From Bacteroidota bacterium (GTDB taxonomy: Bacteria; Bacteroidota; Bacteroidia; Bacteroidales; Prolixibacteraceae): DNA of 60,676 bases. The notes under the pieces are model-generated. The model saw only the letters and a list, made by a program, of their open reading frames with translations. It did not search any database and was not told the DNA's origin. The position numbers and the translations under genes are program-made. Location: positions 1-60,676 of the forward strand of contig JAJUGZ010000013.1 in assembly GCA_029265715.1 (NCBI GenBank). Reading direction: 5' to 3'. Position 1 is the first letter of the stretch; every line of letters begins with the position of its first letter. Positions 10,022 through 14,054 of this stretch are shown here, piece by piece.

Positions 10022-11863
10022 CTATTCAAACCGAAGTATCTCAGGCTCGCGTGGCTGAAAACTGTAAAACTGCGTTTTCAGTTGTTCTTCCATCGCAAAA
10101 CCGATCCCGCCAACATCAGCCGGATGATTAGGATAATAAGCTAATCTGATTTGCAAGGCATTAAACACTAAGTTTTCATTTCGGATCCGCATCCCAACAC
10201 CAATTCCGGAATAATAATCCTGAGTAAAAATAATCTTGCGGTTAGAACCGATAATCCCTAAATCGATAAACGGAAAGATGGCAATATTGAAATTCAGGAT
10301 CGATTTATTTTGAAATAAAACGGTTTCCAGGTTCAGGTTCAGTCGTTGTTTCCCTCGCGCTTCGGTACTTTCAAATCCGCGAATCCCGGTCCGGTATCTC
10401 AATAACATGTTTTCAACTTCAAAGCGGCGGATCCCCAAATCATAATTAAGCTTTACGAACTGGCGTGCTTTCACGGTTCCTATATCGAAAAGTTTTGATA
10501 TATAATCAATATCCACCTCCAGCATGCCCTGCTCAAACCTCCTCGAGTTGAAAAAACCACCAAATCCGGTTGCCGCAAATAAATAATCTTCACGGTATTT
10601 AAATATGTTTCCGGAAGATAGATACACATGAGAATACCATCGAGATGTAAATTCATTATTATCGTACCCAACGACAAATTCGTGCAAGAAGCCACGCGGG
10701 ATATCCTCGGTTATCCCATAGCTGTAAACCAATAAATCGCGGATATAGCGTCTTTGCGAAAAACTCAGGCTTGCCAGATAAAAGGTACTGTTGGCAAAAT
10801 ACTGCCGCCCGGTTTCATCGGCAGCCGGACGATCGGAAAAATGCATATCCCGGATTCGTCCGGAAAGCACGCACTGCAACCGGCTATCTTCGTTGGTCAG
10901 TCCCAATTTTATACGATGCCCATACCAAATATCGTAATACTGATAACTGAGGGGGTAGTCGGTCCGAACCGGATCGGACGGATAAATCCGGTCTGTCCGG
11001 AAAAACTGTTGCATAGCCACACCCCCGCCCCAACTGGTTGTCTGCCTTAAAAACTCTTTGGAATAACCAACCCCATACCCTTCTCTCAGGTACGTATTGG
11101 CATACCCGAAAGTCAGATTATTTAAAAAACCTTTCACCGCGTTTATTTTATAAAACAGCTCTACGCCCAGGTTCGGTTTTCGGGTGGTATGACCGACAAA
11201 ATTAACCGAAAGCTCGTGCCCTATCCCGAAAATATTCTTGTTATAAATATTGAGCGATCCGGTATCAATTTCTTTAAACTTGCCTGTAACCCCGAACGAA
11301 AAAACATCTTTGGTCAGAATCGTCACATCGACCAATTCCGGATTATTTACCTGACTGTCTAAAATAACACGGGCATCTTTCAAATACGGCAGACGACGCA
11401 AAAGGCGTTCATTGTCCATCAGGTTCTCAACACGAATAACCTGCCCTTCACGAATAAATAAATTTCGCCGGATCACGTTCAGGTTCGACTTGGTATGCAG
11501 CGAATTGGCCGCTTTTTCAATCCATATATTGGTTGTTTGAGTTGTATCGTCGAAACTCGGGCCAAAAACATCGAGCGGTTTAATGGTTATCGAAGCAATG
11601 ATTTTCCCTTCAAACTGCCGGTAATACTCGTACGATTTCAATTCGTGATCGTCCCAGCGGCGAGGCTCGCAAACCAGTATATCATAGAGCCACCCGGTTA
11701 ATGCATGCCGGTGCGCCCGTTGAAAGAGGCTATCGTAAAAAACTTTCGAATCGGTTATTGTTTTACTAATGCCCAGTGAATCGGTTGAAGGCAAACAAAA
11801 TGCAGTCGCCCGAACATTCAGGCAACAAAAACAGAATAAACCTATCCATCGCATTTTCATCAT
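10022..11863 (-). CDS. POTRA-domain outer-membrane protein, BamA/TamA-like (Omp85 superfamily)
   Basis: A protein of about 613 aa. After a signal peptide there is one clear POTRA-like segment around residues 115-185 (FIREGQVIRVENL...RRLPYLKDARVIL) and then a roughly 400-aa region of alternating beta-strands consistent with a surface-antigen barrel. With so few POTRA modules it is unlikely to be BamA itself; a TamA-like or lineage-specific transporter is more likely. The start at 11863 (or the adjacent ATG at 11860) follows GGAGGG; an in-frame ATG at 11908 would put about 15 charged residues before the signal peptide and was rejected. A TAGTTTTG box lies at 11906-11913. Confidence 0.75.
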   Translation of the reverse strand: MMKMRWIGLFCFCCLNVRATAFCLPSTDSLGISKTITDSKVFYDSLFQRAHRHALTGWLYDILVCEPRRWDDHELKSYEYYRQFEGKIIASITIKPLDVFGPSFDDTTQTTNIWIEKAANSLHTKSNLNVIRRNLFIREGQVIRVENLMDNERLLRRLPYLKDARVILDSQVNNPELVDVTILTKDVFSFGVTGKFKEIDTGSLNIYNKNIFGIGHELSVNFVGHTTRKPNLGVELFYKINAVKGFLNNLTFGYANTYLREGYGVGYSKEFLRQTTSWGGGVAMQQFFRTDRIYPSDPVRTDYPLSYQYYDIWYGHRIKLGLTNEDSRLQCVLSGRIRDMHFSDRPAADETGRQYFANSTFYLASLSFSQRRYIRDLLVYSYGITEDIPRGFLHEFVVGYDNNEFTSRWYSHVYLSSGNIFKYREDYLFAATGFGGFFNSRRFEQGMLEVDIDYISKLFDIGTVKARQFVKLNYDLGIRRFEVENMLLRYRTGIRGFESTEARGKQRLNLNLETVLFQNKSILNFNIAIFPFIDLGIIGSNRKIIFTQDYYSGIGVGMRIRNENLVFNALQIRLAYYPNHPADVGGIGFAMEEQLKTQFYSFQPREPEILRFE

Positions 11864-11905
11864 TCCCTCCAACTTACTTTTCAATCCACACGGGGGTCGG
11901 CCAAA

Positions 11906-11913
11906 CAAAACTA
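11906..11913 (-). promoter_or_regulatory. Candidate promoter box of the POTRA-barrel gene
   Basis: TAGTTTTG on the minus strand, 42 bases before the start and preceding the GGAGGG ribosome-binding site. Confidence 0.45.
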
Positions 11914-12107
11914 CACCTGCAATGTAAAGAAGATATCGGGCGAATGAGCCGCCTTGTGCTGTTAAATAGTGTTAAAAGCCCTAAGAAACCGATTGATGCA
12001 GGGCAACACACATTCCTGCTTCCCAGAGAAAACAGAAACTCCGGAAACTTTCAGGCAAAATATGTTGATTACCTCCGGCCAGCAAAGAGCAGGCTGTTGA
12101 TTTTTGC

Positions 12108-12123: not shown

Positions 12124-12861
12124 ATGGCACGCATATCGGAGATATATAAAAAGCATGTTTACGGAATTATGGGAACGTTGATTTTCCATATTCTGATCGT
12201 ATCCGGATTTCTGGTTGCCGAAATCAATGTCAAGAAAGAAGCAAAAGAAGAAGCCATTCTGATAGACTTTTCGAACATTCCGGAAAAACCGGAAGAAGTC
12301 AGCCCGGAGAAAAAGCAAACACCGGAAGAAAAAAGCGCAACCGAGGGCCAGACCCAACCAACCACCCGTTCTTCATCGAGTAATCAGGCAGTCAATGATG
12401 CGCTGAAAAAAGACAAGTTCTTCGACAAAGCTTATCAGCAGGAAATTCAGGATGCACAAAAATTAGTTTCCGACGTCAACAAGCAGCTTGCAAAGAAGAT
12501 TCCCGAGAAAAAATCGTTCAGCATGCCCGAAGTAACAACCGAAGGGCAAGATCCGGATTCGGTAAAAAATACCGTATATTCCGGCAAAAGTAACATCCAC
12601 TATTTTCTGGAGAACCGTCATCACGTCCGGTTACCTGTGCCGGTTTATTTAGCTAAAGGCGGCGGGATCGTCGTTGTTGACATTGTTGTAGACCGATCAG
12701 GCCGGGTAATCAAAGCTGCGACAAGGCCAAGCCCCGGCATCAAAGACCCAATGCTGCCGGAATATGCCCAGCAGGCGGCAGAAAACACAGTTTTCAATGC
12801 CGACGCCAAGGCTCCGGCTGCACAAAAAGGCACAATTACCTACACCTTCGTGCCCCAATAA
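12124..12861 (+). CDS. TonB-like energy transducer, orphan
   Basis: A 245-aa protein with the TonB layout: a short cytoplasmic N-terminus; one membrane anchor at about 14-34 that contains His22, comparable to the functional histidine of the TonB anchor; a charged Pro/Glu/Lys-rich periplasmic linker (about 45-160); and a C-terminal TonB-like domain (about 165-245, GGGIVVVDIVVDRSGRVIKA). Known TonB proteins couple the inner-membrane proton gradient to outer-membrane receptors. No exbB or exbD gene is adjacent, so its partners must be encoded elsewhere. The frame opens upstream to 11776, but that part overlaps the divergent outer-membrane gene and its promoter and lacks a signal. Confidence 0.85.
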   Translation: MARISEIYKKHVYGIMGTLIFHILIVSGFLVAEINVKKEAKEEAILIDFSNIPEKPEEVSPEKKQTPEEKSATEGQTQPTTRSSSSNQAVNDALKKDKFFDKAYQQEIQDAQKLVSDVNKQLAKKIPEKKSFSMPEVTTEGQDPDSVKNTVYSGKSNIHYFLENRHHVRLPVPVYLAKGGGIVVVDIVVDRSGRVIKAATRPSPGIKDPMLPEYAQQAAENTVFNADAKAPAAQKGTITYTFVPQ

Positions 12862-12901
12862 CATTGAGATAACATTAACGGTGCAAATAATTCAAAAACA
12901 G

Positions 12902-12946
12902 TTAACGTTTAATTGACATAAAATTGCACTGCCGAACCTACCTTTG
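12902..12946 (+). promoter_or_regulatory. Promoter region of small RNA unit 1
   Basis: TACCTTTG at 12939-12946 is an exact TAnnTTTG box. TTG at 12913-12915 is a possible -33 element, 23 bases upstream. TTAACG at 12902-12907 sits 37 bases before the -7 box, exactly as in unit 2. Confidence 0.7.
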
Positions 12947-12950
12947 CAGT

Positions 12951-13028
12951 ACATTTTTTTCATAAGTTTAGGTTTAGTTAGGTTAGTTAGTTTAAGAGAG
13001 GAAAGGTAGGTGTTGACCTACCTTTTTT
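12951..13028 (+). ncRNA. Candidate small RNA, copy 1 of a tandem pair
   Basis: A transcript of about 78 nt is predicted from a start just after the TACCTTTG box to the T run of a strong terminator. The 5' part has a U run. The middle (12962 to about 13016) contains no C at all and carries five UAG repeats. The 3' part is a 10-bp terminator hairpin with loop GUUG. A 73-base core, 12961-13033, is identical to 13146-13218. There is no start codon with a useful frame, so a peptide is unlikely. The gene boundaries are inferred; expression is untested. Confidence 0.65.
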
Positions 13029-13033
13029 ATTTT
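12961..13033 (+). repeat. Direct repeat copy 1 (73 identical bases)
   Basis: Identical to 13146-13218 over 73 bases. Similarity extends left through the T run (seven versus eight T) and GTACA to the TACCTTTG box. The unit spacing is 185 bases. Confidence 0.97.
13002..13028 (+). terminator. Terminator of small RNA unit 1
   Basis: A 10-bp perfect stem (13002-13011 with 13016-13025), loop GTTG, followed by a T run. Confidence 0.85.
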
Positions 13034-13085
13034 TCCCCCTCAGATTAGATCCCTTCCGGGTAGTTAAAGTAAATTTTAACATCAA

Positions 13086-13130
13086 TTAACGAATATTTTC
13101 AGTTTTTCACTTCTCCATGGCTTACCTTTG
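13086..13130 (+). promoter_or_regulatory. Promoter region of small RNA unit 2
   Basis: TACCTTTG at 13123-13130. TTAACG at 13086-13091 lies 37 bases before it, the same spacing as in unit 1. The sequence between them is otherwise largely different. Confidence 0.7.
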
Positions 13131-13134
13131 TGGT

Positions 13135-13213
13135 ACATTTTTTTTCATAAGTTTAGGTTTAGTTAGGTTAGTTAGTTTAAGAGAGGAAAGGTAGGTGTTG
13201 ACCTACCTTTTTT
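13135..13213 (+). ncRNA. Candidate small RNA, copy 2 of a tandem pair
   Basis: Same architecture as copy 1: promoter box, U run (eight instead of seven T), identical C-free UAG-repeat core, identical terminator. The sequence before the promoter and after the terminator differs from copy 1. The identity is therefore confined to the predicted transcript plus the promoter boxes, which argues for selection or recent duplication of the transcribed part. Confidence 0.65.
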
Positions 13214-13218
13214 ATTTT
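13146..13218 (+). repeat. Direct repeat copy 2 (73 identical bases)
   Basis: Second copy of the 73-base core found at 12961-13033. Confidence 0.97.
13187..13213 (+). terminator. Terminator of small RNA unit 2
   Basis: The same 10-bp stem, loop and T run as in unit 1 (13187-13196 with 13201-13210). Confidence 0.85.
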
Positions 13219-13349
13219 CTGTAAATGAACCGGATGAAACAACAAAAAACAACTATCTGACCACTCCTTTTATCCGTAATGCCTCAGAAATAAAAAATCC
13301 TACCGATTTTTCAGAAAAAATCACGCAAGAAAAGCTCTTCGCATAAGCT

Positions 13350-14054
13350 TTATGCAGCTCCGATGATAAAGATGGTAGGCCGTTTTTGAATGTCAGGGAT
13401 ATGTTTTGCCCAATAAGCCATGCTTTTGGTAAGAATGAACTCCGACTCCAGAGTTATGTCGGTTGCGATACACAACAATGTTTGCGGATCGCAGGTCTTT
13501 AATAAATCATCTAACAATTGCAGATTCCGGTATGGCGCTTCTATAAAAATCTGACATTGCTTTTCCTGATAAGCCCGCCGCTCCAACATTTTCAAGTGCT
13601 TTGACTTATCTGGATTTTTGATCGGCAAATATCCGTTAAACGCGAAATTCTGCCCGTTCATCCCCGATGCCATCAATGCCAGTAATATTGAAGATGGGCC
13701 AACCAACGGAACTACTCTTACCCCTTTGGTATGTGCTAAAGCCACCACCTCGGCGCCAGGATCTGCTACCCCGGGACAACCTGCTTCTGAAATAATTCCC
13801 GTATCAGAACCAGCCAATGCCGGTTCGAGAAACCGAGCCAGCTCCGCTTTATTGGTATGTTTATTCAACTCGAAAAATGTAAGTTCATCGATGTTTATCT
13901 CGGGGTTTACTTTTTTTAAAAACCGACGGGCAGTACGCAGATTTTCAACCACAAAGACTTTTACCGACGAAATAATGCTGGTCAAATCAGGAGGCAATAC
14001 ACGTCCCAACTCAGAATCCCCAAGGGTTGTCGGTATTAAGAAAAGTTTGGCCAT
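13350..14054 (-). CDS. RsmI-like SAM-dependent methyltransferase, short variant
   Basis: A 234-aa protein of the tetrapyrrole methylase/RsmI fold. The N-terminal LFLIPTTLGD and the SEAGCPGVADPG loop at residues 89-100 correspond to the VATPIGNL and DAGTPLISDPG motifs of RsmI, the 16S rRNA cytidine 2'-O-methyltransferase. It is about 50 residues shorter than typical RsmI, lacking the C-terminal extension, and several motif positions differ. It may be a paralog with another substrate. A TATTTTTG box lies 15 bases upstream. It faces the small RNA units with its 3' end. Confidence 0.8.
   Translation of the reverse strand: MAKLFLIPTTLGDSELGRVLPPDLTSIISSVKVFVVENLRTARRFLKKVNPEINIDELTFFELNKHTNKAELARFLEPALAGSDTGIISEAGCPGVADPGAEVVALAHTKGVRVVPLVGPSSILLALMASGMNGQNFAFNGYLPIKNPDKSKHLKMLERRAYQEKQCQIFIEAPYRNLQLLDDLLKTCDPQTLLCIATDITLESEFILTKSMAYWAKHIPDIQKRPTIFIIGAA

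Follow-up and report, generated by a model that had tools for sequence, protein, structure and literature searches.

A putative tandem small RNA gene, conserved in Prolixibacteraceae and complementary to SusC start regions

The range of polysaccharides open to Bacteroidota is set by their SusC/TonB importers, and in the literature that we found, control of these importers by RNA is described for one gut species. What, then, are the two closely similar units that lie between a plus-strand gene (12124-12861) and a minus-strand gene (13350-14054) in a Prolixibacteraceae genome? We analysed the 60,676-nt stretch of DNA that carries them (the window). A sequence-only reading of this DNA had proposed a duplicated gene for a roughly 78-nt RNA, each copy with its own promoter and terminator, and had recognised no described family.

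The two units and their common box, 184-185 bases apart in that reading, were recovered by a mechanical repeat search. An 80-nt core is shared with 100% identity (12954-13033 and 13139-13218, spacing 185); the identity claimed for it was correct, and the 73 bases given as its length fell short. The TACCTTTGCAGTACATTTTTTT repeat (12939-12960 and 13123-13144) is 91% identical at a spacing of 184, the one-base shift being due to one extra T in copy 2. Chance cannot account for an exact repeat of 80 nt. As had also been proposed, each core ends in a terminator (Table 1), which forms the 3' end of the predicted RNA; the 5' end of copy 1 is placed near 12950-12951.

Table 1. Features of the tandem units and of the gene directly upstream (window coordinates)
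Feature	Position	Strand	Remarks
Divergent TonB-like protein gene (putative), directly upstream	12124..12861	+	TIGR01352 26.5 bits, cut-off 27.1
Upstream element of copy 1, degenerate (TTCAAAAACAGTTAAC)	12891..12906	+	differs from TTTAACATCATTTAAC at 4 positions, counted by hand
-7 box TACCTTTG of copy 1	12939..12946	+	family copies: 22-24 nt before CAT in 75/78
Predicted sRNA copy 1	12950..13028	+	covariance-model match 12950-13027, 90.9 bits; both copies were among the sequences used to build the model
5' part of copy 1, predicted unpaired and complementary to the starts of SusC genes (CAU over AUG)	12951..12998	+	
Intrinsic terminator of copy 1	12999..13028	+	13 pairs; two-sided changes in relatives
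Upstream element of copy 2, TTTAACATCAATTAAC	13075..13090	+	1 mismatch; begins 48 nt before box
-7 box TACCTTTG of copy 2	13123..13130	+	
Predicted sRNA copy 2	13134..13213	+	covariance-model match 13135-13212, 94.5 bits; same model
Intrinsic terminator of copy 2	13184..13213	+	13 pairs

Two terminator-like sites were found where shuffled sequences gave an expectation of 0.6. Fold prediction left the 5' half unpaired (fold z -2.17; 7 of 200 shuffles folded equally well). No ATG occurs inside either unit, and a protein-coding unit was rejected on this ground. A scan of the window against Rfam at the gathering threshold returned 0 matches, and a tRNA/tmRNA search found none.

Conservation beyond its own genome had been set beforehand as a test of the RNA gene, and it is present. 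Within the genome itself (4.2 Mb, 200 contigs), clear copies occur on contig C192 (the two in the window), C57 and C64; the 80-nt stretch of copy 2 recurs identically on C57, and the units thus form a multi-copy paralogous family. A further pair (C98:48783-49044; L218, L223) gave weak covariance matches (E 0.40 and 0.73) and carries TACCTTTG boxes with a TTAAC element at -48 (2 and 3 mismatches). With blastn (E<=0.001), 37/37 family genomes matched, a few of them by short stretches only, compared with 2/24 other genomes of the order, where "order" presumably means Bacteroidales as defined by GTDB (in the NCBI taxonomy, Prolixibacteraceae belong to Marinilabiliales). A covariance model built from 25 copies (R1; E<=1e-4) matched 99 of 100 family genomes and all 23 genera, with 1-8 matches per matching genome. 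The hairpin consensus of these 25 copies has 13 pairs, 6 of which show two-sided changes. An exact 35-mer was found in 68 stretches of named genomes, including Draconibacterium, Maribellus, Mariniphaga and Tangfeifania, although some titles (Chitinophaga pinensis, Odoribacter, Chlorobiota) may be mislabelled. Taken together, these comparisons indicate that the units belong to a conserved family of putative small RNAs. Tandem copies recur in relatives; one genome has five tandem units, 235-271 nt apart (G394 C1:2859693-2860750).

In an order-wide search, R1 matched 61/295 genomes at E<=0.01, part of which may be false since a TAnnTTTG box lay within 60 nt upstream in just 13 of the 25 outside loci inspected (L228-L253 without L242). 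A second model, R2, built from 21 sequences across the order without any FopS sequence above the Rfam threshold, matched 5/395 genomes of the phylum at E<=0.001, four of them in the same order. The only match outside it (L382; G722 C7:21708-21775) may be real, because TACATTTG lies 48 nt before the unit.

Copying alone might in principle produce such a pattern, the units being a repeat or mobile element spread without regulatory function. An identical 80-nt stretch at three places of the genome and the five tandem units of a relative would fit this, as would a FopS sequence reported from a phage in the part of the FopS paper that we draw on (PMC11697453). We regard this explanation as highly improbable, given the presence of the units in 99/100 genomes, the two-sided hairpin changes, the fixed promoter parts and the conserved neighbour described below, and given that relatives show neither random placement nor decaying seeds. 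A mobile origin was also rejected on a separate search, in which the interval 12861-13349 had no match in phage and plasmid collections.

The promoter region was surveyed in the 100 nt upstream of 78 unique copies with a near-perfect core (<=1 substitution in 21 bases); these copies include relatives and so are not independent. TAnnTTTG, the Bacteroidota -7 element, begins 22-24 nt before CAT in 75/78, and by this position the units have a canonical sigma-ABfr promoter, as FopS genes do. Along with the hairpin changes and the 99/100 family genomes, the fixed place of the box supports the duplicated RNA gene of the sequence-only reading, with a predicted length of about 79 nt. Farther upstream, a TTTAACATCATTTAAC-like element (<=4 mismatches) is present in 75/78 copies, always 47-49 nt before the box and in 74 of the surveyed copies at -48/-49; in shuffled upstream regions it matched anywhere in 42/1560. 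The element of copy 1 likewise begins 48 nt before its box. When 2 mismatches are allowed, the genome holds 12 such sites, and 5 with the pattern reversed; a box follows at 48 nt in just two of the 12, both of them at sRNA units, a result that counts against the explanation favoured below. Among 13 loci from other, non-FopS families of the order, the element (<=4 mismatches) stands at -47..-50 in 6, and at least one TTAAC is found at -47, -38, -37, -27 or -17 in 10. We also noted TTTAACACTATTTAAC at window positions 11961-11976 (minus strand), followed 63 nt on by TAGTTTTG. This arrangement precedes the gene 10022-11908 on that strand, which may be under the same regulator at a different spacing.

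The gene directly upstream putatively encodes a divergent TonB-like protein, which narrowly misses the NCBIfam cut-off (Table 1) and clearly misses that of Pfam TonB_C (15.2 versus 24.6). Among the 76 unique copies for which 500 nt or more of upstream sequence is available, 57 have a homologue of it that ends before CAT on the same strand; tblastn found 55 of these, at 75-316 nt, and the remaining two, which were entered manually, are those of the window. The gene is absent at the C57, C64 and C98 copies, and in 41 loci, 38 of them outside the family, no match to it was seen beside the units at E<=0.01. On the other side, the gene at 13350-14054 resembles a 16S rRNA (cytidine 1402-2'-O) methyltransferase (107.9 bits, NCBIfam cut-off 167.9); none of the 97 relative loci that were searched gave a match to it.

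The reverse complement of the sRNA 5' half reads CTAACCTAACTAAACCTAAACTTATGAAAAAAAATGT, which resembles a SusC start. This resemblance could be taken to mean that the minus strand matters, as a susC-like leader or a small peptide-coding gene derived by copying a SusC start, and three weak R1 matches in this genome (L215, L216, L222) do lie antisense to long frames beginning at SusC starts. The conserved box, the upstream element and the T-tail, however, all belong to the plus strand, and in five copies from the family the reverse frame from the ATG runs for 8, 1, 17, 28 and 5 aa, so that we give a minus-strand function very little credence. A reverse-strand peptide was rejected because its frame is not conserved.

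Complementarity to importer starts was measured in the window's own genome, where 54 SusC genes exceed the TIGR04056 cut-off. A seed-blind rule (distance of the ATG from the domain) placed the start in 51; it could not do so in three genes (L039, L040, L043), which were left out of the energy test. The 31 genes whose frame stays open for over 330 nt ahead of the domain are called long-type, and the other 20 short-type. Long-type SusC is the STN type: 8/8 of those tested, out of the 31, had an STN match (6 over cut-off), compared with 0/2 short-type genes. Next-gene starts were found in 27/30 loci, and the background comprised 214 genes of 20 stretches plus the window. Duplexes of the 47-nt 5' part with positions -40..+20 had an energy of -22.9 kcal/mol for long-type SusC, -17.2 for short-type SusC, -16.4 for the next genes (SusD-type) and -13.4 for background. 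All 51 SusC starts, which are not independent because SusC genes are paralogues, differed from background (p 7.6e-17), from 21 background genes of MKK/MKR type (p 7.6e-6) and from the next genes (p 2e-4). None of 200 dinucleotide-shuffled seeds reached the native seed in any of four measures, mean energy included.

Contiguous pairing through CAU:AUG, with G-U allowed, separated these classes further. Runs of at least 10 pairs were found in 30/31 long-type and 10/20 short-type SusC starts, 11/27 next genes, 23/214 background genes and 11/21 MKK/MKR genes; with at least 12 pairs the counts were 28/31, 5/20, 1/27, 6/214 and 2/21. CAU lay on AUG in the best duplex of 30/31 long-type and 14/20 short-type starts, 20/27 next genes and 16/21 MKK/MKR genes; as it did so in 103/214 background genes too, the register alone is a weak criterion and long contiguous pairing the strong one. 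SusC starts are A-rich, which counts against the pairing reading given the scores of the MKK/MKR background. The RNA could accordingly be a general antisense to A-rich starts (secreted proteins beginning with MKK), with SusC as its strongest class, as the above-background scores of next genes and MKK/MKR genes would allow; or it could be a decoy for an RRM protein, since the genome has two RRM_1 proteins and RbpB is reported to bind the 5' parts of FopS (PMC11697453, in part). We judge this pair of explanations unlikely, the contrast of 28/31 long-type SusC with 2/21 MKK/MKR genes at 12 or more pairs arguing against it. One of the RRM_1 protein genes lies some 2 kb ahead of a SusC start (G000 C53:33992-34201; L119).

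On its own long-type SusC starts the window seed gave z -7.3. As a positive control we took a genome that carries FopS; on 20 of the SusC starts there, the FopS seed gave z -5.0. This control is not fully clean in that the same seed gave z -2.7 on the background of our genome. Species-specific co-variation of seed and SusC starts was not seen, which speaks against the pairing reading. In G030, whose sRNA reads ACGTTTATTTTCAT, 28 SusC starts showed no matching change, and its long-type starts pair less well with their own seed (-15.5) than with the window seed (-17.4); in the window genome, the G324 seed (-24.6) beats the native one (-22.0).

It has been reported that FopS is a paralogous sRNA family of Bacteroides thetaiotaomicron (Rfam RF04319), that the binding site of FopS-10 on susC BT_3983 adjoins the start codon, that this RNA abolishes translation of the importer in vitro, and that RbpB counters FopS-10 (PMC11697453, in the parts drawn on here). 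FopS is also reported to respond to bile salts. FopS and the present units both have an unpaired 5' part with a U-run and CAU followed by a Rho-independent terminator, align over their full length, occur in several copies, pair with susC start regions (here by computation) and start 12 nt after the start of a -7-type box (8/8 FopS loci; about 12 here). FopS, which the sequence-only reading had mentioned as an example of multi-copy small RNA families in Bacteroides, is the closest described kind for units that this reading could place in no family, and they do fall far below the Rfam threshold. Differences lie in length (FopS about 65-70 nt, about 79 nt here), in the seed after CAU, in the best predicted targets, which here are long-type SusC, and in the TTAAC-repeat element and TonB-like gene upstream.

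Might the units simply be FopS, an orthologue of the Bacteroides family that escapes the Rfam model on account of a narrow seed alignment? In bits, FopS scores highest of the Rfam matches to both copies, over the full length 1-71. These scores are 20.6 and 19.6 bits against a threshold of 56, and the match alone (E 0.25) is not significant because three unrelated families have lower E-values. FopS exceeds its threshold in 55/295 genomes of the order, whereas 0 of 4 family genomes drawn (G000, G023, G032, G302) had a FopS match at E<=0.01. Model R2, for its part, gave 22.0-28.2 bits at 8/8 FopS loci, more than its best background match (18.6), although with E-values of just 0.02-0.24. With the terminator kept and the 5' part shuffled, only 0-2 of 250 shuffles equalled each of the eight FopS units, which are near-identical and hence not independent. 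Sub-threshold FopS matches at 3 of 20 loci scanned (L228, L233, L237), all found with R1, are intermediates that hint at kinship. The seeds share UUUUUCAU and parts of UUAG-UUUA-AGGUUA and differ in the rest; at -47..-50 the eight FopS promoters differ from the upstream element by 5-11 bases, and the FopS seed is weak on our long-type SusC starts (z -1.7). We treat the units as a variant of the FopS kind and not as a member of RF04319, and consider outright identity with FopS possible but doubtful.

Other known RNAs are more distant. GibS also places an unstructured 5' seed over target start codons and shares what is there called R1 with FopS; it differs in its length of about 145 nt, its PM2 promoter, a second seed R2 and other targets (PMC7366714, in part), whereas the units here have a TAnnTTTG box and a predicted length of about 79 nt. 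OmrA/B, Qrr and LhrC are likewise sets of several near-identical sRNA genes, in other phyla (PMC11697453, in part), and Rfp18 of Flavobacterium is another sRNA (PMC9723704, in part). In the literature searched, the present branch is not described beyond the FopS and GibS papers.

The best explanation, which we hold to be likely, is an RNA encoded in several copies that acts in trans and blocks translation of SusC in the manner of FopS. Each unit would be a gene for a trans-acting RNA of about 79 nt, transcribed from its own Bacteroidota -7 promoter, probably with the help of an activator reading TTAAC repeats about 10 bp apart, and ending at the intrinsic terminator. The unstructured 5' half (ACAUUUUUUUCAUAAGUUUAGGUUUAGUUAGG...) would pair with the starts of many SusC-type outer-membrane importers (...AAACUU-AUG-AAAAAAAAU...), with CAU on AUG. 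By analogy with FopS-10 on susC BT_3983, the RNA should mask the AUG of importer mRNAs and keep ribosomes off, lowering importer synthesis at many uptake loci together; several copies may raise dosage. Since the 5' half is complementary to dozens of importer-gene starts, the RNA is probably a shared off-switch. Gene anatomy, conservation and the complementarity of the starts are computed results; expression, binding and repression, as well as the activator and any role of an RRM protein, are inferred.

A broader reading, which we put forward tentatively and think rather less than evenly likely, is an order-wide superfamily of start-codon antisense RNAs in which FopS is one twig. The Prolixibacteraceae branch would then be a dedicated brake on STN-type SusC with its own TTAAC-repeat regulator (repeats every 10 bp) and a gene order tying it to the TonB-like protein, and importer number would be matched to energising capacity. 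In one bacterial family that includes named strains (Draconibacterium, Maribellus, Mariniphaga) there are now a defined seed, predicted targets in register with the start codon, a promoter element and a neighbouring gene that is conserved. How general FopS-like control is, and what the reason is for several copies per cell, thereby become directly testable.

Two further arrangements were noted along the way. An extra FopS-like unit (L257:934-1003; 39.7 bits with model R2) lies near a FopS gene, and a tandem FopS-like pair is found in another family of the order (L237:1373-1444 and 1501-1571).
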